A DNA stretch of 64,000 nucleotides from Pseudomonadota bacterium (GCA_963205115.1 CAUJHV010000063.1:61054-125053); one strand, 5' to 3'; positions 52,702 through 64,000 are shown, numbered from the stretch's first letter. Translations and numbers: made by a program. The notes: generated from the letters alone by a model not told the origin.

Positions 52702-53070
52702 ATGAACGCACGCTTGATTTCCCGCATTTCAGCGATCACGCTGGCCGCCGGCGCCCTGATCGGCCTTGGCGTCCCTGCGCAGGCGGCCCCTGACGCCGAA
52801 GCGGCCCAGGCCGTGCTGAAAAAGAACGACTGCGGCAAGTGCCACTCGCTGGACAAGGACAAGAAGGGACCGTCGCTGAAGAAGATCGCCGCGAAGTACA
52901 AGGGCAAGCCCGACGGCGAAGAAAAGACCATCAAGAACATGACCACCGGCCTGAAGGTCAAGCTCGACGACGGCACCGAGGAGGAGCACAAGGTCATCAA
53001 GCTCGACCCGAAAAAGGCCGACGAGATGGCGCAGATCAAGAACATCGCGGAATACATCCTCACGCGCTGA
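52702..53070 (+). CDS. Small monoheme class I cytochrome c
   Basis: Signal peptide MNARLISRISAITLAAGALIGLGVPAQA; CGKCHSLDKDKKGPSLKKIAAKYKGK. Confidence 0.9.
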   Translation: MNARLISRISAITLAAGALIGLGVPAQAAPDAEAAQAVLKKNDCGKCHSLDKDKKGPSLKKIAAKYKGKPDGEEKTIKNMTTGLKVKLDDGTEEEHKVIKLDPKKADEMAQIKNIAEYILTR

Positions 53071-53108
53071 TCGACGCCTGCCCGCGGCGCTCCAGGGGGC
53101 ACGCCCTG

Positions 53109-53134
53109 GGCGCGACGTCGATCGGCGTCGCGCC
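53109..53134. terminator. Hairpin GGCGCGACG-tcgatcgg-CGTCGCGCC downstream of cytochrome c gene
   Basis: Perfect 9-bp stem, 8-nt loop; no U-tract, so terminator or processing/attenuation hairpin. Confidence 0.4.
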
Positions 53135-53255
53135 GGTGGTGGCGTGAGTCCTGCCGGACGCCGCGATCCGCGCTGCAAGCAGCGCCGTCCCCGGACCCCT
53201 GGTGACTTGTCGACCGAGCCGCCAGCCGGTCTTTACTGGACCTGCCGGACGTCCC

Positions 53256-54617
53256 ATGCGCCTGCGTCTTTCCCCATCGGCCGCGTCGCGGCCTTCGCCC
53301 ACGGGCTGGCTGTTGACGGCCTGCCTGCTGCTGGCCACCTGGCTGGCCTTCCCGTCGCCTGCCTGGGCCGAGGAACCCTCGTTCTCCAGTGAGAGCGAGG
53401 CCTGCCTGAAGTGCCACGGCAAGCCCGACATCGCGCCCAAGAAGCTGGACGACGGCAAGACCCTGTCGATGCACGTGCGCGGCAAGGACTTCCTGGCCTC
53501 GCGCCACGTCAAGCAGGACTGCAGCGACTGCCACTCGGGCATGGACGAGCCGGAACACGGCAAGAAGCCCACGCCTCTGGCCAGCGTGCGGGCCCTGCGC
53601 GAGGCGACGCAGGAAACCTGCCGCGACTGCCACAAGAAGCGCTTCAAGCAGTTCGAGGACAGCCTGCATGCGGCCTTGCTGAAGCAGGGTGACACCAAGG
53701 CGCCGCTGTGCGCGAGCTGCCACGACGCGCACTACCAACACGACGTCAAGGTCGTCCAGCCGATCGAGAAGACGAGCTGCGGCGATTGCCACGAGAAGAT
53801 CTTCAAGGCCTACGCCGGCGACGTGCACGGCCTGGCCCGCAAGGCCAAGGGCAAGGAAGCGCCGATCTGCGCCGACTGCCACCAGTCGCACGAGATCCAA
53901 TCCGCCTCGCTGGGCGACGGCCCGCGCGACGCGTGCCTGAAGTGCCACAAGGGCACGGCCACCGACCACGCCAAGTGGCTGCCGAACACGGGCCTGCACT
54001 TCGAGGCGATTTCCTGCGTGGTCTGCCATTCGCCCAATGCCGAGCGCCGGGTCAACCTGCGCCTGTTCGATGCGGTGGCGGGCCAGCAGCTGCGCGAGAA
54101 GACCGGCGTGCCGCAGTTCGTCACCCGCGTGAAGGCCGAGGACGCCGGCAACACCGGCCTGGACGGCGGCGACCTCGAGCGCCTGATCGGCAAGTTTGCA
54201 GCTGACATGGGCGCCAAAGGCCGCGTCGAGCTGCGCGGCCGCCTGGAAGTGCGCGCCGGCGAGATGGCGCACCAGTTGCACCCCAAGGACAAGGCGCTGA
54301 GCACCTGCGATACCTGCCACAAGCAGGGGGCCGAACCTTTCAAGAGCGTCGTGTTGTCCATCGCCAGCGCCGACGGACGTCCGCTGAAGCACGTGGTGCA
54401 GCCCGAGGTGCTGGGCTCGGCCCAGGCGCTGGAGTCGGTGCGCGGCTTCTACGCGCTGGGCAGCACGCGCTTCAAGCTGCTGGACGTGCTGCTCGTGCTG
54501 GCCGTGGCGGCCAGCGCTGGCGGCTGCCTGCTGCACATGATGGCCCGTCGCGCCTTCCGCGGCGAGCGCGAGAAGCGGAAGGCCGCGCGCGCGTCGGCCG
54601 GTCAGGAGAAGTCATGA
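53256..54617 (+). CDS. Nine-heme c-type cytochrome with C-terminal TM anchor
   Basis: CxxCH motifs: CLKCH, CSDCH, CRDCH, CASCH, CGDCH, CADCH, CLKCH, CVVCH, CDTCH; C-terminal LLDVLLVLAVAASAGGCLLHMM. Confidence 0.92.
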   Translation: MRLRLSPSAASRPSPTGWLLTACLLLATWLAFPSPAWAEEPSFSSESEACLKCHGKPDIAPKKLDDGKTLSMHVRGKDFLASRHVKQDCSDCHSGMDEPEHGKKPTPLASVRALREATQETCRDCHKKRFKQFEDSLHAALLKQGDTKAPLCASCHDAHYQHDVKVVQPIEKTSCGDCHEKIFKAYAGDVHGLARKAKGKEAPICADCHQSHEIQSASLGDGPRDACLKCHKGTATDHAKWLPNTGLHFEAISCVVCHSPNAERRVNLRLFDAVAGQQLREKTGVPQFVTRVKAEDAGNTGLDGGDLERLIGKFAADMGAKGRVELRGRLEVRAGEMAHQLHPKDKALSTCDTCHKQGAEPFKSVVLSIASADGRPLKHVVQPEVLGSAQALESVRGFYALGSTRFKLLDVLLVLAVAASAGGCLLHMMARRAFRGEREKRKAARASAGQEKS

Positions 54618-55270
54618 AACGCCTGTACATCAACCCGCTGCCCGTGCGGCTGTGGCACTGGGCCAATGCGCTGTGCATCCTGGTCCTGATCCTCACCGGG
54701 ATCCAGATCCGCTACATCGGCCAAGTCGACCTGATGATGTCGTTCCGTACGGCCGTGTGGTTGCACAACGTGTCGGGTTTTGTGCTGGGCGGCCTGTTCG
54801 CCTTCTGGCTGCTGTACTACCTGCTGAGCGACCGCACCAGCGTGTACCACACCGATCCGGACCGCCAGCGCTTCTTCGCCGAGGCCTATCGGCAGATGAA
54901 GTACTACGGCTTCGGCATCCTCAAGGGCGACCCCAACCCGCACCACGTCACGCCGTACCGCAAGTTCAACCCCTTGCAGAGCATGACCTACCAGATCGTC
55001 ATGTTGGTGCTGCTGCCGCTGCAGTTCGGCACCGGACTGCTGCTGTGGGATGTCAAGCGTTTCGGTACCGTCGTCGACCTGCTGGGCGGCGTGCGCGTCG
55101 TGGACACGGTGCACGTGCTGCTGTTCGTGGCGTTCTCGGCCTTCGTCGTGATGCACGCCTACATGGGCAGCCTCGGCAACAAGGCCTCCACGCACTACAA
55201 GGAAATGCTCACCGGCTACGAGGAAATCGAGGAGCCGGGCGACACGGCGGCTGCGGGAAAACGCGGCTGA
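54614..55270 (+). CDS. Cytochrome b561/formate dehydrogenase gamma-like di-heme membrane cytochrome b
   Basis: MKRLYINPLPVRLWHWANALCILVLILTGIQI...AVWLHNVSGFVLGG...VVDTVHVLLFVAFSAFVVMHAYMG; ATGA overlap with multiheme gene. Confidence 0.88.
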   Translation: MKRLYINPLPVRLWHWANALCILVLILTGIQIRYIGQVDLMMSFRTAVWLHNVSGFVLGGLFAFWLLYYLLSDRTSVYHTDPDRQRFFAEAYRQMKYYGFGILKGDPNPHHVTPYRKFNPLQSMTYQIVMLVLLPLQFGTGLLLWDVKRFGTVVDLLGGVRVVDTVHVLLFVAFSAFVVMHAYMGSLGNKASTHYKEMLTGYEEIEEPGDTAAAGKRG

Positions 55271-55319
55271 GAGCGGCGGGGCCCGAGCCCCGCGCCTTTC
55301 GTCCAGGACCGATAAAGAG

Positions 55320-55359
55320 AAGCCCCGAGGGCGCGGCGGAAACCGCGGCCTCGGGGCTT
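55320..55359. terminator. Bidirectional terminator-like hairpin between convergent operons
   Basis: AAGCCCCGAGG ... CCTCGGGGCTT perfect 11-bp arms with further internal pairing (CGCGG/CCGCG). Confidence 0.75.
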
Positions 55360-55424
55360 GTGTTCGTGTGGCGGTGAAATCGTCTGGCGGTGAAGCCCGG
55401 CGCTCAGGTGCGCGCCGGGGGCCT

Positions 55425-55637
55425 TCAGGCGGGCGAGTTCGAGGACTTGGCCTGCGCAGCGGCTCGCTGCTCTTCCCGCCACAGCTTGAACAAGGCCATC
55501 GGCATCATCGCCGCGTAGGCCATCGTGATGAAGGGGCCGGCGAAGAACAGCGCCATGCGCTTGGCCACGCTCATGACTGGCGGGCGCATGCCTTCGGCCT
55601 CGTGCGCTGCGGACTCGGGGGTGGTGGGTCGGTTCAT
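55425..55637 (-). CDS. Small membrane protein at the end of the mtr-like operon
   Basis: MNRPTTPESAAHEAEGMRPPVMSVAKRMALFFAGPFITMAYAAMMPMALFKLWREEQRAAAQAKSSNSPA. Confidence 0.65.
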   Translation of the reverse strand: MNRPTTPESAAHEAEGMRPPVMSVAKRMALFFAGPFITMAYAAMMPMALFKLWREEQRAAAQAKSSNSPA

Positions 55638-55694
55638 GCGTGTCGGGAGTTCAAGGGAACGAGGGTGGCGCCAGGTCCGCGGCTGCGGCATCCG

Positions 55695-57770
55695 TCAGAA
55701 GCGGTACCTCACCGCCGCGCGCAGCACCTGCAGACTGTAGCCCGGCGAGCCGGTGCCCAGCGTCAGCAGGTTGGGCACGGTGGCCGCCGCAATACCGTCG
55801 AGGTGCCAGTCGGTGGACGCGTAGCGCTCGTGCCAGAAGCTGCCCAGCAGGGTGATGTGGGGTTGCAGCTGGTAGGTGGCGCTGAGCTTGAGGGTCTCGC
55901 GGCGATTGCCGGCGGACGGGAATTCGGACGTCGGCCCGGCGCTGTCGATGGCCACGCGGCTGCGCGAGCGTGAGCTGGCGATCTCGGCGGCGAGCGTCAG
56001 TTTGCCTTTCACGTACCGACCCTGGACTCCGCCGGTGTCCACGAGGTCGCGGGTCGTGGCGGACCAGTCGGCTGTCGCGTAGGCCGCGCTGCCACGCTGC
56101 AGCGAGCGGATCCGCTCGCTCTGCACGAAGGCAGAAACCGAGAGTTCGTCGTTCAGCGCGAGCGACACGTCGGCGCCCAGCGCCTCGCTGCGCGACTGCG
56201 CCAGGCCGATCGGTGAGCGTTGGTAGTCGTCGTTGGAGAACTCGCCGTGCACGCCGAGCTGCACGGCTTCGCTCAGCGTGTAGTCCGCTGCGGCACGCCA
56301 GCTGTCGCGCCGGCGGTCCGCCAGATTGAACTTGCGCAGCAGCGGGTTCTCGGCGGGCGAAATCCAGGTCGCTATGCCGTAGCCGTCGTTCGTGCGTTCG
56401 GCGTGAGCCGCGCGCAACGACAGGTTCAACCCGGTCAAGGGTTCCAGGCGCGCTTGCGCCCAGACCGTGGTGTCCAGGGTGTCGCTGGCTTCCTGCCAGG
56501 TGCGGTTGGTCGCGACCGCCTCGATGCCGCCGGACAGGCGCAGCGTGCCCGGTCCGCGGAAGTCGGCCGTTAGCTTGCCGCGGTCTTGTACGTAGCTGTA
56601 GGGTGTCGTGCTGACCGTGCCGCCGGCCGCAAGGTCGGTGGTCACCGTCGTGAAGGTCATGACCGGCGTCTGGTTGTCGCGCTCACTGTGCGAATAGACG
56701 GCATGTATGCGCAGCGCATCCATCGGCACCAGCGTGAGCCGCACGTTGGCGTTGTAGGTGTCCACGCGGCCCTGCAGCGAAGTCCGCGGCAGCGCTGCCA
56801 GCGTACTGGCCAGCAGCGGGTTCTGCGTCAGCGGCAGGAAGTTATCGTCCTGCGTGAGGCGGCCGACGGCGAAATCGGCGCTGACGCGCCACAGCGCCGA
56901 ATGCACGTAGGCGGCCTGCCCCGATACCTGGTGCAACGTGTTGTCGGGCGCGAGCGCGAGCTGGCCGACCGAAGCGCCGGGCACCGCAGAGATGAACGGG
57001 TTGGCCCAGCGCAGGCCGTCCAGCGCGTTGCGGAACTGCGAAACCTGGTAGCCCAGCGTGGCGTGCCACCGGTCGGCGCGGTAGGTGGCCGCGAGCTCCA
57101 GCTGGTCGGTCACCTGGTCGATCGGCAGCGGCAGCTGCGAAGCCGTCGAGAAGAACGAGCCGCTGCCGATGCGCAAGCCGTCACGCACGTCGTGGCGCAG
57201 GGACAGGCGTGTCGTCCAGCCGGGTTCCAGCGGCACCACGGCGGCGAGGTCCAGGCGCTTGCGGGTGGACGACAGGTCCACCGGCTGCAGGCTCGCGGCC
57301 AAGGGCATTGCGCCGGTGCTGGCCGCAGGGAAGCCCGCCGGCAGCGTCAACGTGTTCGCGCCGATGCCGAGGAAGGGCGATGCGGCGTCGTCGGCCAGGT
57401 AGCGGGGGATCTCGGCGTAGCCCAGCCGCAGGCCGACCAGGCCGTCCCGTCCGCCGCGCAGGTCGAGCTGGCGCAGCGCGGTGCTGCCGCTGGCATCGAG
57501 CCACCAGCCTTGCGGACCGCGCCAGCGCACGTCGCCTTCCAGCTGGAGGTAGTTGCCCTCGCGGCGCAGCCCGGTGTAGTCACCGAACCGGGCCGAGCGG
57601 TCGCTGACGACGGCCAAACCGGCTTCGACGGCGCCGGAGACGCCTTCCTTCTCGAAGGGGCAGGTCGCGCAGGCCCAGGCGGAGGTGTCGACGGCTTCGG
57701 CAGCCGCAGCGGCCGCGGGCGACAACACGCCCAGCGCGGCGAGCAGATAGAGCGAACTGAAGCGGGTCAT
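55695..57770 (-). CDS. mtrB: MtrB/PioB family decaheme-associated outer membrane beta-barrel protein
   Basis: Signal peptide, N-terminal CxxC (WACATCPFEKEG), repeated amphipathic beta-strands, C-terminal ...VLRAAVRYRF; adjacent to MtrA-like gene. Confidence 0.92.
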   Translation of the reverse strand: MTRFSSLYLLAALGVLSPAAAAAAEAVDTSAWACATCPFEKEGVSGAVEAGLAVVSDRSARFGDYTGLRREGNYLQLEGDVRWRGPQGWWLDASGSTALRQLDLRGGRDGLVGLRLGYAEIPRYLADDAASPFLGIGANTLTLPAGFPAASTGAMPLAASLQPVDLSSTRKRLDLAAVVPLEPGWTTRLSLRHDVRDGLRIGSGSFFSTASQLPLPIDQVTDQLELAATYRADRWHATLGYQVSQFRNALDGLRWANPFISAVPGASVGQLALAPDNTLHQVSGQAAYVHSALWRVSADFAVGRLTQDDNFLPLTQNPLLASTLAALPRTSLQGRVDTYNANVRLTLVPMDALRIHAVYSHSERDNQTPVMTFTTVTTDLAAGGTVSTTPYSYVQDRGKLTADFRGPGTLRLSGGIEAVATNRTWQEASDTLDTTVWAQARLEPLTGLNLSLRAAHAERTNDGYGIATWISPAENPLLRKFNLADRRRDSWRAAADYTLSEAVQLGVHGEFSNDDYQRSPIGLAQSRSEALGADVSLALNDELSVSAFVQSERIRSLQRGSAAYATADWSATTRDLVDTGGVQGRYVKGKLTLAAEIASSRSRSRVAIDSAGPTSEFPSAGNRRETLKLSATYQLQPHITLLGSFWHERYASTDWHLDGIAAATVPNLLTLGTGSPGYSLQVLRAAVRYRF

Positions 57771-57811
57771 GAGGGCCTCAGAAAACGATGTGGGGTGGCC
57801 GGTGCGCTGCA

Positions 57812-58816
57812 TCAGCGCATCAGCTTGTTGCCCGCAGGATGGTTCGAGCCATGCACCTGCGTGTGGCAGTTCAGGCAACTGCCGGCCGTGACGAAGATGG
57901 CACCGGCGCCGCCCTGCGACGGCAGACCCGCGGCCGTGCGCGAAACCGCCGGGTGGCCGGCCACGGTATGGCATTCCTGGCACAGCAGCGGCGCGGACTT
58001 GGTCAGCAGACCCGCGCGCGGCGAGCCATGGCTCGTGTGGCACTGGCCGCAGTCCTCTGCCACGGGCGCGTGCTCCCACAGCAGCGGACCGCGCTTCTCC
58101 GCGTGGCACGAGAAGCAGGTCTGGTTCAGCGTCTGCCCTGCCAGCATGGCCGGCGTGCTGTTGCCGTGCGCGTTGTGGCAATCGCTGCAACCCATCTTGC
58201 CCTGGCGAACCGGGTGGGCCGACGCCCGCTGGAATTCCGCGCGCTGGGTCTTGTGGCACGTGTAGCAGACCTGGGCCTCGGTGGCCTTGGCCATCACCGG
58301 ATCCTTGGCCGTGTGCATCTTGTGGCAGCTGGCGCAGGCCAGGTCGGCACGGCCGTGGCCTTCGGCGTGCCAGGCGTTGCGGGCGCTGTTTTCGTGGCAG
58401 CCCAGGCAGGGCGCATTGCGCTGCGCCGGCGTCATGAAGGAGCTGGCCTTCTGGCTGTTGATGGTGGGCAGCTTCTTGCTGTCCTTGATGGAGTGGTTGT
58501 AGCCGGGGCCGTGGCAGGATTCGCACTGCAGGCCGCCCTTGGCGAAAGGCGAGCGCGGGTCACCGCGTCGCGCGTGCTTGCTCTTGAACATCGCTGCCGT
58601 CGTATGGACGGCCGTGTCGGCGTCCTCGTCGTGGCAGTTCAGGCAGGTGTCGGCGCCCTTTTCGCTGTAGCGCGTGCCCTGCACGACGGGCAGCGGCGTG
58701 GCGGCGGCGGTGACAACCTTTGGCGCCGCAGGCGTCTGTGCCGCTGCGGGTCCGGCGCCGGACGACAGGGCGGCCAGCGCCAACAGCGCGCTCAGCAGGG
58801 GCTTGGAGAGTCTCAT
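57812..58816 (-). CDS. mtrA: DmsE/MtrA-family decaheme periplasmic c-type cytochrome
   Basis: Ten CxxCH motifs (CLNCH, CESCH, CLGCH, CASCH, CYTCH, CSDCH, CFSCH, CGQCH, CQECH, CLNCH) after a signal peptide. Confidence 0.94.
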   Translation of the reverse strand: MRLSKPLLSALLALAALSSGAGPAAAQTPAAPKVVTAAATPLPVVQGTRYSEKGADTCLNCHDEDADTAVHTTAAMFKSKHARRGDPRSPFAKGGLQCESCHGPGYNHSIKDSKKLPTINSQKASSFMTPAQRNAPCLGCHENSARNAWHAEGHGRADLACASCHKMHTAKDPVMAKATEAQVCYTCHKTQRAEFQRASAHPVRQGKMGCSDCHNAHGNSTPAMLAGQTLNQTCFSCHAEKRGPLLWEHAPVAEDCGQCHTSHGSPRAGLLTKSAPLLCQECHTVAGHPAVSRTAAGLPSQGGAGAIFVTAGSCLNCHTQVHGSNHPAGNKLMR

Positions 58817-58865
58817 TGTTCTGGCCCGTCGAAGCAGGGTGATGTTGGGCATGGCTGCGCGCCCC

Positions 58866-59348
58866 TCAGCGGGCAGCCGATGCGGCACGCGGCGGGGCGC
58901 CAGGTGCGCGGGTAGGCAAGGCCTGGCGCGGTGGCCGTCCGGCGGCGGCCGGCACGGCGACCATGGTGCCGCGGTTGGCGAGGTAGACGCCGGTCGGGAT
59001 GCGGGCCTTGTCGACGATCTCGGCGCTCGTCAAGTAGGGGCGGGCGGCGATGATGCGATCGGCCTCGGCGTCCTCGATGTACGCCAGCGTTTTCAGTTGC
59101 TCTCGCGTGGCCGAGTTGACATCGATGCGAGGCCGCGGCCGGGGTGCCTGCACCGCCCGCCGTGCCGCACCCGAGGCCACCGTGCCGCCCGGAACCTCCT
59201 GCGCGCCCGAGGCCGCATGCGGAGCCGGCGAGGCCATGGCAAATGCCAGGGCCTCATCCGGTGCGAGCGAGGCGGACAGCAGGCCTGCGGCCAGCAGCAT
59301 GGCGCTGCCGAACCGGTACCCCGTCCCCCACGTGCGAGCCCCTGGCAT
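58866..59348 (-). CDS. Exported helix-hairpin-helix (ComEA-like) protein
   Basis: Signal-like N-terminus; RIDVNSATREQLKTLAYIEDAEADRIIAARPYLTSAEIVDKARIPTGVY. Confidence 0.82.
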   Translation of the reverse strand: MPGARTWGTGYRFGSAMLLAAGLLSASLAPDEALAFAMASPAPHAASGAQEVPGGTVASGAARRAVQAPRPRPRIDVNSATREQLKTLAYIEDAEADRIIAARPYLTSAEIVDKARIPTGVYLANRGTMVAVPAAAGRPPRQALPTRAPGAPPRAASAAR

Positions 59349-59357
59349 GGCGTCGGC

Positions 59358-62195
59358 CTAGCGCTTGTGGACCGCGCGGATGTCACCCACGCGACCGGAC
59401 TCGTGGCAGACCCCGCAGGTCTCGACCCGTGCCAGCGCGGTGCTGCGCGGTTGGTAGATCGAACCGCCGTTGGACTCGATGTGTGCCCGCGACTGCAGCG
59501 AGTCGTGGCAGGCGAAGCACACCGTGGTCGTCGGCGACGTCACCAGCGTGGTCGCAGCAGCCTCCGTGGTGGTTCCCGTGGCGGCGGCGAAGCTGAAGCC
59601 CGTGCCGTAGGCCTTGTCCAGGTCGAAATACTTCGGCTGGATGGGGTTGGCCCAGGAGGTGCTCTGCGGCGCCGCGAACGTGAAGGCGGTGGTGCTGGTG
59701 CTGGCCAGCGAGCCGCTGAGCGTCGTGCGGTACAGACGGTTCGGCAGCGCGGTGATGGCGCTGGCGGCGCTGTAGTCGTACGTGCCGGGCAGGTGGCAGG
59801 TCTCGCAGTCCTTCAAGACGCCGGGATAGCCGATCTCCCAGTACCCGCCGGTGGCCGCGGGGGTGTGCCAGTTGTACTTCACCGTGCGCTTCGCTCCGCC
59901 GTGGATGGCGTGCACGAAGGCGGTGGAGTCAGCCGACCAGCCGCTGCTGGCGCGGTTCGGGGTGTGGCACCACGAGCAGGTCGTGCCGTCGTTGCGCTGG
60001 CCACCGTGGAAGGCTTCTTCCGTGAACGTGCCCAGCTCCTGGTGGCAGGCGTTGCAGCGCTTGTCTTCGACGATCGCGCGACGTCCGGTATAGCCGGCGG
60101 CGACCTTCTGCGCGTTCGGCGTGACGACCAGCAGGCCGCCGATCTCGTTGGCCGCGCCCACGGGCGAGGCCTTCACCGGGTAGCCGTCGACATTGGTCTG
60201 CGTCAGCGGCAGGGTGGACGTCACGTTGTACGAGTACCCCAGGCCGCCGGTGAGCATGACGGCCCCATCCGGCACCGTGACGCCGGTGAGCGTGGCGGTG
60301 TAGTAGCCGTCGGCATCCGGCCCGGCGAGCGTGCCGGCGCCCGTGCCGGTGGCCTTGCCGTTCCAGATTGTCTTCAGGTAGCCGCTGGCACTGGCATTGA
60401 AGTCGGCCGGCGCGGTGATGCCGTCCTGCGGCACCGCGAAGACAAAGTAGACGCTGGGCGCACCCATGAAGTTGTCCCAGATCTCCTTGTCACCGGTCAG
60501 CGGGCTGGCGGCGGTGTCGGCCAGGACGTTGAGGTCCTTGCGGGCGCCGTTCTGCAGCATGCGGAAGACGATCACCGGGCGCTTGGCGCTGTTGCGCGAG
60601 ACGCTCTTGATGTCATAGCTCACGGCGATGGCGCCGGCCGGCAGGCGTGCCGGGTTGGAGGCGATCCAGGCCGAATTGCTGTTCGCGTTGCCACCGGCCA
60701 CGTGCAGGGCGCTGCCCGCATTGGGCGGCGTGACCGGCAGGTGGTTGCGGTCGATCGTGTCGGGCTTGTGGCACATCGCGCACAACGAATCGTCGGCCTG
60801 CGGGCCCGCCGCATGGGCGAAGCCGGTGGAGCCGATGACACTGGCCTTCAGGCCGGCCCGCGCATCGGCCAGCGTGACGCCGGCACCGGTGGCGAAGTTG
60901 ATGCCGTCATGGCAGGAACCGCAGGCCACCCGACTGGGCATGTTCTTCCAGTTGTCGCCTTGCGCGGTCTTGGCCGTGGACTTGTCGGAACCGTCGTGGC
61001 ACTTGGTGCAGTTGCGCAGGTCCTGCGGATACCCGACGTGGTTGAACGCCAGGCCGCCGTAGTTGTAGTTCTGCTTGCTCAGCGTGTGACCGGCGTGCAG
61101 CTTGTGCACGAAGTTGGACAGGTTGCCCACGGCCCTGCCGTCGACCATGTTGGTCGCGCTGGTGAAGGTGAGCGTGGCGTTGTCCAGCGTGGCGTCGGTG
61201 CGGCCGTACTTGCGTTGCTCGGTGTGGCACATCACGCAGTAGCGGACCTCGTTGCGCGCGCCGCCGTGGAAGCTGGCCGAGGAACTGGAGGCCGTGTCGC
61301 CGGCGATGCCGCCGAGCTTGCGGTGGCACTCCTCGCACTTGGCATTGGCGACGACGTCGCGGCCCGAACTGGCGACGGGCGCGCCCGTGGAGGGCACGAA
61401 GTCGTAGATGGCATCGACCGGGCGGGTCAGCGGCACGCCGGTGGGCGTGGCGGCGAAGGCCGTGCCGGTGGCGGTGTTGGTGCCGGTGCCCGGGGCGTTG
61501 CCGGAGAACTGGATGCTCACGCGGTGCACGCTGGCTGGCGTGTAGCTCAGATCGGTGAGGTCCTTGTCACCGCCCAGCGCGGCCTTGTCGGCGTCGGTCA
61601 TGCTGGTGACGGCCAGCAGCTTCTGGCGCATCGTGGTGATGTCGCGTGCGAAGGTGTATGTGTAGGTGCCGTCGCCGTTGTCAACCAGCGTGCCGGTGTT
61701 GTCGGTCGAAGGACGGGTCGGTGTGGTCGTGGTCGCCGTGGTGGTGACGATGTAGCTGACCCAGCGCGCGGGCGAGCCGTTGACCGCAGGCACCAGCTTG
61801 GCCAGCGAAAAGGCCAGGTTCGGCAGGCTCTTGAGCGTAGTGCCGCTGGTGTTGCCCAGGCCGGCGATGGCCGCGCCATCGACATTCGTGACTTTGAAGT
61901 TCACCACCGGTGCGCCGGCGATGCTGACGCCGGTGACGGTGACCTGCGGCTCCAGCGCCTTCCACGCGGCGATGGACGCGTCGGTGGCCGCCGTGGCGTT
62001 CGAGGCAATCCTGACGGTGGCGCTTCCTGCAGGGCCCGCGGGGCCCGCAGGCCCTGTCGGGCCGGCCGGGCCCGAGGCACCGGTGGAACCCGAGGCGCCG
62101 GTGGTTCCGCCGTCTCCACCGCCACAGGCGGCAAGCATCGATACCAGCAGGCCTGCGGCCAGGCGGTTACGCCAGACGGCGTTCGTGCGCTTCAT
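59358..62195 (-). CDS. mtrC: OmcA/MtrC-family decaheme outer-surface cytochrome c lipoprotein
   Basis: Lipobox LLVSMLAACGGG; ten CxxCH (CEECH, CVMCH, CTKCH, CGSCH, CAMCH, CNACH, CSWCH, CETCH, CFACH, CGVCH); FHGGARNEVRYCVMCHTEQ pattern typical of OmcA/MtrC. Confidence 0.94.
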   Translation of the reverse strand: MKRTNAVWRNRLAAGLLVSMLAACGGGDGGTTGASGSTGASGPAGPTGPAGPAGPAGSATVRIASNATAATDASIAAWKALEPQVTVTGVSIAGAPVVNFKVTNVDGAAIAGLGNTSGTTLKSLPNLAFSLAKLVPAVNGSPARWVSYIVTTTATTTTPTRPSTDNTGTLVDNGDGTYTYTFARDITTMRQKLLAVTSMTDADKAALGGDKDLTDLSYTPASVHRVSIQFSGNAPGTGTNTATGTAFAATPTGVPLTRPVDAIYDFVPSTGAPVASSGRDVVANAKCEECHRKLGGIAGDTASSSSASFHGGARNEVRYCVMCHTEQRKYGRTDATLDNATLTFTSATNMVDGRAVGNLSNFVHKLHAGHTLSKQNYNYGGLAFNHVGYPQDLRNCTKCHDGSDKSTAKTAQGDNWKNMPSRVACGSCHDGINFATGAGVTLADARAGLKASVIGSTGFAHAAGPQADDSLCAMCHKPDTIDRNHLPVTPPNAGSALHVAGGNANSNSAWIASNPARLPAGAIAVSYDIKSVSRNSAKRPVIVFRMLQNGARKDLNVLADTAASPLTGDKEIWDNFMGAPSVYFVFAVPQDGITAPADFNASASGYLKTIWNGKATGTGAGTLAGPDADGYYTATLTGVTVPDGAVMLTGGLGYSYNVTSTLPLTQTNVDGYPVKASPVGAANEIGGLLVVTPNAQKVAAGYTGRRAIVEDKRCNACHQELGTFTEEAFHGGQRNDGTTCSWCHTPNRASSGWSADSTAFVHAIHGGAKRTVKYNWHTPAATGGYWEIGYPGVLKDCETCHLPGTYDYSAASAITALPNRLYRTTLSGSLASTSTTAFTFAAPQSTSWANPIQPKYFDLDKAYGTGFSFAAATGTTTEAAATTLVTSPTTTVCFACHDSLQSRAHIESNGGSIYQPRSTALARVETCGVCHESGRVGDIRAVHKR

Positions 62196-62482: not shown

Positions 62483-63289
62483 GTGATCCCCAGGCAGGCC
62501 GAACCGGCACATCACAACTTCGAGGAGAACAGCATCGCACCTCCAACTGCTGTGGCCAGCCGTGGTGAACACCCGGTGTGCGCGGTCCGTGATCCGGCCG
62601 CCGCCGAGACCTTGCAGATTCCGCGCTACCTCGAGACGGTGTACTGGTGGGCTTATGTGCACCCGAAGGCGGTCAACGTCTTCGAGCGCGAGTGGCTGGT
62701 CAACGCCATCCTCTTCGGCAACTATGCGCGGCTGCGTGACGCCGCCGTGGCCGCACTGGCCGAACCCGGCGCGCCGATCACCGGCCGCACGATGCAGGTC
62801 GCCTGCGTCTACGGCAACCTCACGAACAAGCTGATGTCGCGCCTGGCGCCCGAGGCGCAGCTGGAGGTGGTGGACATCCTGCCGATCCAGCTTCAGAACC
62901 TGCGCGAGAAGATCGCGCCCGATGCGCGTGTGACGCTGCGCCAGGGTGACTCGTCCGCGCTGCCGCATGCCGATGCCAGCGTCGACCAGCTGCTGCTGTT
63001 CTTCCTCTTGCACGAGCAGCCCGAGGCCGTGCGCCGCGCCACGCTGGCCGAGGCCATGCGGGTGGTCAAGCCGGGCGGGCGCATCGTCGTCGTCGACTAC
63101 CACCGGCCTTCGGCCTGGCACCCGCTGCGGCTGCTGATGCGCGGCGTGTTCGGCCGGCTGGAGCCCTACGCCATCGACCTGTGGAAGCAGGAGATCGAGG
63201 ACTTCCTGCCGCCGGCCAACCGGCCGACCACGCGCAGCAAGCGCACCTGGTTCGGCGGGCTGTACCAGATGCTCGTCTGGACCCGCTGA
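62483..63289 (+). CDS. rquA: RquA-like rhodoquinone biosynthesis methyltransferase-fold protein (start uncertain)
   Basis: [40 protein letters not shown]...[17 protein letters not shown]...[18 protein letters not shown]...[39 protein letters not shown]; located directly upstream of frdA. Confidence 0.82.
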
Positions 63290-63308: not shown

Positions 63309-64000
63309 ATGGAAACCTTTTCTTCCGACGTCGCCATCATCGGCGCGGGCGGTGCGGGGCTGCGCGCGGCCATCGCGATTGCCACGCGCTATCCGCAGCT
63401 GAAGGTGGCGCTGATCTCCAAGGTCTACCCGATGCGCAGCCACACCGTGGCCGCCGAGGGCGGGGCCGCGGCGGTCACGCAGGCGCACGACACGCTCGAG
63501 TACCACTTCAACGACACCGTCAGCGGCGGCGACTGGCTCTGCGAGCAGGACGTCGTCGAAGACTTCGTCGCCCAGTGCCACGACGAGATGGTGCAGATGG
63601 AGCACTGGGGCTGCCCCTGGAGCCGCAAGCCCGATGGCCACGTCAATGTGCGCGCCTTCGGTGGCATGAAGATCGAACGCACGTGGTTTGCCGCGGACAA
63701 GACCGGCTTCCACATGCTGCACACGCTGTTCCAGACGTCCATCCAGTACCCGTCGATCACGCGTTTCGACGAGCACTTCGCGGTCGACCTGATCGTCGAG
63801 GACGGCCGCGCGCAAGGCGTGCTGGCGCTGGAGATCGCCACGGGCGAGTTCCGGCTGATCCAGGCCAAATCCGTCATCATCGCCACCGGCGGGGCGGGGC
63901 GCGTGTTCCGCGAGAACACCAACGGCGGCATCGTCACCGGCGACGGCATGGCGCTGGCCTACCGCCACGGCGTGCCGCTGCGCGACATGGAGTTCGTGCA
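63309..64000 (+). CDS. frdA: Fumarate reductase flavoprotein subunit, E. coli FrdA type (truncated by window end)
   Basis: [87 protein letters not shown]...[44 protein letters not shown]; open at 64000. Confidence 0.92.

Follow-up and report, generated by a model that had tools for sequence, protein, structure and literature searches.

A betaproteobacterial MtrCAB-type conduit beside a nine-heme/cytochrome b561 pair that may serve as its split quinone module

Which inner-membrane protein links the outer-membrane electron conduit of this locus to the quinone pool? The window analyzed here is a 64,000-nt stretch of a Rubrivivax genome (GCA_963205115.1, CAUJHV010000063.1:61054-125053; genus according to the taxonomy of the genome collection). 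The mtr locus occupies positions 52702-62195 of the window, and the contig end falls inside frdA, which lies beyond mtrC. The host assembly comprises 6.08 Mb in 80 contigs and is 89.7% complete. Since it holds two adjoining reaction-centre L/M genes, pufL and pufM, the host is probably a purple phototroph. A first-pass annotation of the window had described an MtrCAB-like module, complete and in a betaproteobacterial background, and had suggested that a helix-hairpin-helix (HhH) protein within the operon, together with a nine-heme/cytochrome b pair facing it, might mark a distinct variant. Our analysis points to a complete Mtr conduit that is probably linked to the quinone pool by a split, CbcL-like bc-cytochrome, with rhodoquinone as a possible partner.

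Results

The locus encodes a predicted complete MtrCAB-type conduit

The first-pass annotation had made its claim of a complete module depend on matches to the MtrC, MtrA, and MtrB profiles. All three proteins score above the curated cut-offs: the OmcA/MtrC protein with 429 bits against TIGR03507 (cut-off 209), the MtrA/DmsE protein with 277 bits against TIGR03508 (cut-off 192), and MtrB with 385 bits against TIGR03509 (cut-off 240) and 461 bits against PF11854 (cut-off 23). Upon alignment with solved structures, MtrA and MtrB matched chains 6r2q_A (E=2e-80) and 6r2q_B (E=1e-80) of the MtrAB crystal structure (PDB 6r2q), and MtrC matched the MtrF structure 3pmq (E=6.5e-21). The decaheme counts given at first for the lipoprotein and the MtrA-like protein were both correct, as we found 10 CxxCH motifs in each, along with nine in the nine-heme protein and one in the monoheme protein. 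When the residues of the three multiheme proteins were shuffled, the means were 0.01-0.07 motifs and the maximum was 3, which places the heme counts far beyond chance. The proposed MtrB/PioB-type barrel does carry its N-terminal CxxC, in the form CATC, and inspection of MtrC translated from the ATG at 62195 revealed the lipobox LAAC. Between the lipobox and the heme domains lies a collagen-like Gly-X-Y stalk (about 62030-62130, minus strand), which is kept in most relatives. Every profile and structure-sequence comparison thus agrees with the module as first described, and the locus is, by homology, a complete trans-envelope conduit of the betaproteobacterial mtrC-HhH-mtrA-mtrB type.

This core is not new, because Baker et al. 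(2022) have published the arrangement and relatives share it. In their betaproteobacterial 'Group 4' mtrCAB clusters, mtrC is followed by an HhH gene, and homologues of mtoC/mtoD are present along with neighbouring frdABCD and ccm genes (PMC8805035); at our locus we found HhH after mtrC, an mtoD neighbour, and the start of frdA as the frd neighbour. When 81 Rubrivivax genomes were searched with MtrB, strong matches (E below 1e-100) were present in 18 besides the host, one of them split over two contigs. The synteny search that had been suggested recovered the same core within the genus, and most of the related loci that we read keep the order mtrC-HhH-mtrA-mtrB. This comparison set comprises about 33 other mtr loci with unequal flanks and some short contigs, so absences from it are not exact counts (loci, mtr or other, are given below by L numbers). 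One contig, labelled as a Myxococcaceae metagenome-assembled genome (L082), encodes an MtrC 56% identical to that of the host, reflecting either transfer or misbinning.

The HhH protein was rightly called, although PF12836 scores 24 bits, just under its cut-off of 27; the family is kept at the same place in relatives. For that very reason it does not set the locus apart: the gene is the rule among relatives and its position is already published, and we rejected it as a special feature of the cluster. The AlphaFold model has a mean pLDDT of 63 overall, with a fairly confident HhH region at about residues 75-130, for which the fold search ranked the ComEA-related 2duy and chains of PsbU nearest, with probability 1.00 and E about 0.01. 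PsbU is an extrinsic HhH subunit of photosystem II. Since the host copy is without the GIG hairpin of most relatives, having AYIED in place of PGIGD, DNA binding looks unlikely, and a role in assembly or stabilization seems more likely.

The monoheme protein is, by alignment, an MtoD homologue. It scores 38.9 bits against PF00034 (cut-off 21.3) and matches PDB 4XXL, which is MtoD of Sideroxydans (PMC4412085), with E=1.2e-24 over residues 12-121, nearly the whole length, including the aligned histidine of EEEHK. A monoheme gene 44-62% identical to it adjoins the mtr cluster in six relatives (L051, L052, L053, L067, L068, and L075).

A nine-heme/b561 pair appears to stand in place of the quinone modules of sister loci

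The facing operon of monoheme, nine-heme, and cytochrome b genes was borne out, the last by PF01292 (91.6 bits, cut-off 30.1), which identifies a b561-type protein with four transmembrane segments (TM). Four of its histidines (15, 51, 167, and 181) are invariant in 15 sequences, as expected if it binds two b hemes. The nine-heme protein has a single TM centred at residue 417; its AlphaFold model is poor (mean pLDDT 41). We infer that the two proteins work as one unit from three observations: their genes overlap by 4 bp, a member of another family (L093) carries both parts as one open reading frame (32% and 46% identical to the host parts), and 7- or 8-heme genes recur across the phylum directly 5′ of b561 relatives. 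PF03264 (NapC/NirT) is absent from both proteins. The c-part aligned with the c-parts of fused MtoC/CbcL-like proteins with E=2e-31; the MtrA control gave 2e-14.

No b561 homologue lies near mtr in the related loci, and the nine-heme plus b561 pair occurs in none of the roughly 33 others read; this supports the first-pass suggestion that the pair makes the locus a variant. A relatives search with the nine-heme protein as the query found none, and a plasmid search likewise found none. Partial matches of 30-37% identity cover only parts of the protein and were not used as orthologues. PF22112 had no match in the host genome, a result that is uninformative since the controls gave none either.

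What sister loci carry instead falls into two kinds. In seven mtr loci (L051, L052, L058, L061, L066, L068, and L077), the protein has 3-4 hemes and a TM at its N-terminus, and Pfam confirmed it as NapC/NirT in all three that were scanned (L051, L058, and L068). Seven genomes (L060, L062, L067, L071, L075, L080, and L084) encode a fused protein that has 8-11 hemes and, toward its C-terminus, several TM, a predicted layout of the CbcL/MtrH/MtoC architecture (PMC6295460). In L052 and L066, the NapC-type and monoheme genes converge on mtrB from the place that the monoheme, nine-heme, and b561 genes have in the host. With a support of 0.99, the MtrC tree groups the host with L067, L068, L075, and L081; in the MtrB tree its group (support 0.93) comprises L051, L067, L068, L073, and L075. 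Within this group, L051 and L068 have the NapC-type module and L067 and L075 the fused one. Because both trees place the host among loci bearing other modules, our reading is that the quinone module has been exchanged within a single clade of conduits.

Several further cytochrome genes were seen along the way. A 5-heme protein with three N-terminal TM, an ImcH-like layout, is encoded near mtr in L060, L062, L063, L069, L071, and L084. The host assembly has a second multiheme/b561 pair, of 8 hemes plus b561, away from mtr (L135, G000:C52, 4925-7318), and a NapC-type gene beside ccm genes that carries one in-frame TAG (L090, G000:C16:59500-76500).

rquA and frdA adjoin the conduit

The start of rquA lies 288 bases beyond mtrC and frdA follows it. 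RquA scores 296 bits against NF038261 (cut-off 175), and the best match of the frdA product is NF006686 (2.7e-138, residues 1-230). In other loci, rquA is found near mtr in L051, L053, L054, L068, and L075, with frdA as well in L053, L068, and L075. The host assembly, at the completeness given above, yielded no menD above the cut-off (best 62 versus 244 bits) and no match to the MqnA family; the low-scoring menD-family matches, far below the cut-off, were not taken as menD. At that completeness, these absences are no more than suggestive of a lack of menaquinone. Given that rquA is present, that neither menD nor MqnA was found, and that a survey found rhodoquinone and menaquinone to occur together rarely (PMC11707229), rhodoquinone would be the likeliest low-potential quinone in the host. 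Its use by the Mtr conduit is a further step that we infer.

Gene layout

Coordinates are collected in Table 1. Reading from 62195 to 55695 on the minus strand, mtrC, the HhH gene, mtrA, and mtrB follow in order with a small open reading frame (ORF) after them, and the plus-strand genes (52702 to 55270) converge on the mtrB side. The strong hairpin noted where the two operons meet is real, with a perfect 11-bp stem in which 55320-55330 pairs with 55349-55359, and it is without the T-run that a terminator scan requires. GC content is 0.68-0.74 in most cluster genes and lower in the monoheme (0.61) and b561 (0.63) genes. The small ORF has a weak VALFFAAPF motif in common with a TM tail (L131, 5680-5736; L132, 5812-5868) that ends an ORF lying immediately 5′ of the 7-heme/b561 pair in two Rubrivivax genomes, a likeness that at E about 0.02 is too weak and was not used as evidence. 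Response-regulator genes and a CxxCH-containing ORF resembling a sensor kinase flank those two pairs.

Table 1. Features of the mtr locus and its neighbours, in window coordinates
Feature	Coordinates	Strand	Basis
Monoheme class I cytochrome c, signal peptide, MtoD homologue	52702..53070	+	PF00034, PDB 4xxl
Nine-heme cytochrome c with signal peptide, one TM helix at the C-terminus	53256..54617	+	9 CxxCH, TM prediction, relatives L131, L132, L093
Cytochrome b561-type membrane subunit, 4 TM	54614..55270	+	PF01292, TM count, conserved His in 15 sequences
Hairpin between convergent operons	55320..55359	.	11-bp perfect stem
Small ORF, one hydrophobic segment, coding status uncertain	55425..55691	-	directly after mtrB
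mtrB, outer-membrane barrel, N-terminal CxxC	55695..57770	-	TIGR03509, PF11854, 6r2q_B
mtrA, periplasmic decaheme cytochrome	57812..58888	-	TIGR03508, 6r2q_A; start codon uncertain, ATG at 58816 likely
HhH protein, probable signal peptide, ComEA/PsbU-like fold	58866..59348	-	PF12836, alignment, model and fold search
mtrC, surface decaheme lipoprotein, collagen-like stalk	59358..62195	-	TIGR03507, 3pmq, lipobox, Gly-X-Y run
rquA, rhodoquinone biosynthesis enzyme	62483..63289	+	NF038261
frdA, N-terminal part, contig ends within gene	63309..63998	+	NF006686

Discussion

By homology, surface MtrC and MtrA inside the MtrB barrel would carry electrons across the outer membrane, with the MtoD-like protein as the periplasmic carrier. 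The nine-heme and b561 proteins would form one inner-membrane complex that passes electrons between the quinone pool and periplasmic carriers or MtrA by way of two b hemes. Since the pair appears to occupy the place of CymA/NapC or of a fused MtoC/CbcL-type protein in sister clusters, we regard it as a putative split, CbcL-like quinone module. A different cytochrome, made of two proteins, thus seems to have taken over the inner-membrane link between conduit and respiratory chain. In the dark without oxygen, electrons would probably flow outward, with rhodoquinol or ubiquinol as their source, and inward flow may be possible when the photosynthetic chain or another high-potential acceptor is available; we lean toward a reversible conduit. 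Published work on CbcL/MtrH/MtoC identified no direction-setting feature (PMC6295460).

Five points weigh against this interpretation. The b-part is only weakly similar to its fused relatives (E=9e-5, probability 59%), two Rubrivivax genomes with an mtr cluster hold their 7-heme/b561 pair away from mtr (L131 and L132), the link of the host pair to Mtr rests on proximity on opposite strands, the MtrA tree leaves the clade unresolved, and short flanks make the absence of the pair elsewhere inexact. One alternative is that the pair is a neighbour with a task of its own, for instance reducing a soluble substrate with electrons from quinol, like the 8-heme/b561 pairs, and that a NapC-type protein from another locus serves the conduit. 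The occurrence of related pairs away from mtr fits this, as does the closest NCBIfam match of b561, thiosulfate reductase cytochrome B, below the cut-off. Both NapC-type genes of the host assembly lie away from mtr, and one, on contig C4, is intact. However, that gene directly follows a napB-like end and so appears to belong to a nap operon, and the pair comes directly after the MtoD gene and converges on mtrB, in the very position of the NapC-type gene in L052 and L066. We therefore consider an independent pair unlikely. A conduit of the DmsEF type, serving a surface molybdoenzyme, is far less probable still. The name DmsE borne by the MtrA profile match suggests it, yet TIGR03508 covers MtrA and DmsE alike, mtrC is present and complete, and no molybdoenzyme gene occurs among the cluster genes, for which we rejected it.

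Electron uptake of the Mto/Pio kind is a more substantial competitor, which we find plausible without favouring it. Here Fe(II) or another donor would be oxidized at the surface, MtrCAB would run inward, MtoD would deliver electrons to the reaction centre or an oxidase, and the pair would feed the quinone pool. The MtoD homologue, the pufL/pufM genes, and the inclusion of Rubrivivax in a list of genera with abundant pio/mto components (PMC10654088) all point this way. MtoD has been proposed to serve a high-potential acceptor, and recent experiments question its part in the Mto pathway (PMC13390432). Against uptake, the cluster has a large surface MtrC and no HiPIP (PioC) among the scanned cluster proteins; RquA and FrdA fit anaerobic respiration no less than uptake and, with MtrC, suit an outward or reversible conduit.

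Returning to a split quinone module, we tentatively extend it, as a rather doubtful proposal, to an Mtr conduit linked to rhodoquinone, in a purple bacterium that lacks menaquinone. In this proposal, the nine-heme/b561 complex, replacing CymA/MtoC, would oxidize or form rhodoquinol, made via rquA, and exchange electrons with the outside through MtrCAB. Our literature search found nothing linking rhodoquinone with extracellular electron transfer. If true, extracellular electron transfer in bacteria that lack menaquinone would have a low-potential quinone in rhodoquinone. Across this locus and its sisters, closely related mtrCAB sets lie beside different quinone modules, which makes them a natural experiment on the determinants of direction and redox range.

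Comparison with known systems

The locus resembles 'Group 4' mtrCAB in mtrC, HhH, mtrA, and mtrB with mtoD and frd neighbours, and differs in its nine-heme plus b561 pair instead of mtoC/cymA and in the adjacent rquA; the main text of PMC8805035 mentions neither b561 nor RquA/rhodoquinone. Unlike PioABC, it has no PioC among the proteins scanned. In its predicted fold the HhH region resembles ComEA and PsbU, but the gene here lies inside an electron-conduit operon and its protein is without the GIG hairpin. CymA/ImoA of the NapC family hold the same place in sister clusters and have the same proposed task, whereas the pair has no NapC domain. With CbcL/MtrH/MtoC the pair shares nine c hemes and a membrane-bound diheme b part, and the MtoC and MtrH genes also adjoin mtrAB/mtoAB (PMC6295460, PMC9129911). 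Members of that family are single polypeptides, with about nine c hemes followed by six TM of the HydC/FdnI type, whereas the host has two genes rather than one, 1 + 4 TM rather than 6, and a b-part of the PF01292 b561 type that is weakly related to the fused relatives. Because of the two polypeptides and the weak b-domain match, we do not assign the pair to the CbcL/MtrH/MtoC family, although it would work like CbcL. As a putative bc-type inner-membrane cytochrome of two genes, the pair may be compared with CbcBA of Geobacter, a cytochrome of that type which serves extracellular electron transfer and bears a two-gene name (PMC9129911, PMC12307469).

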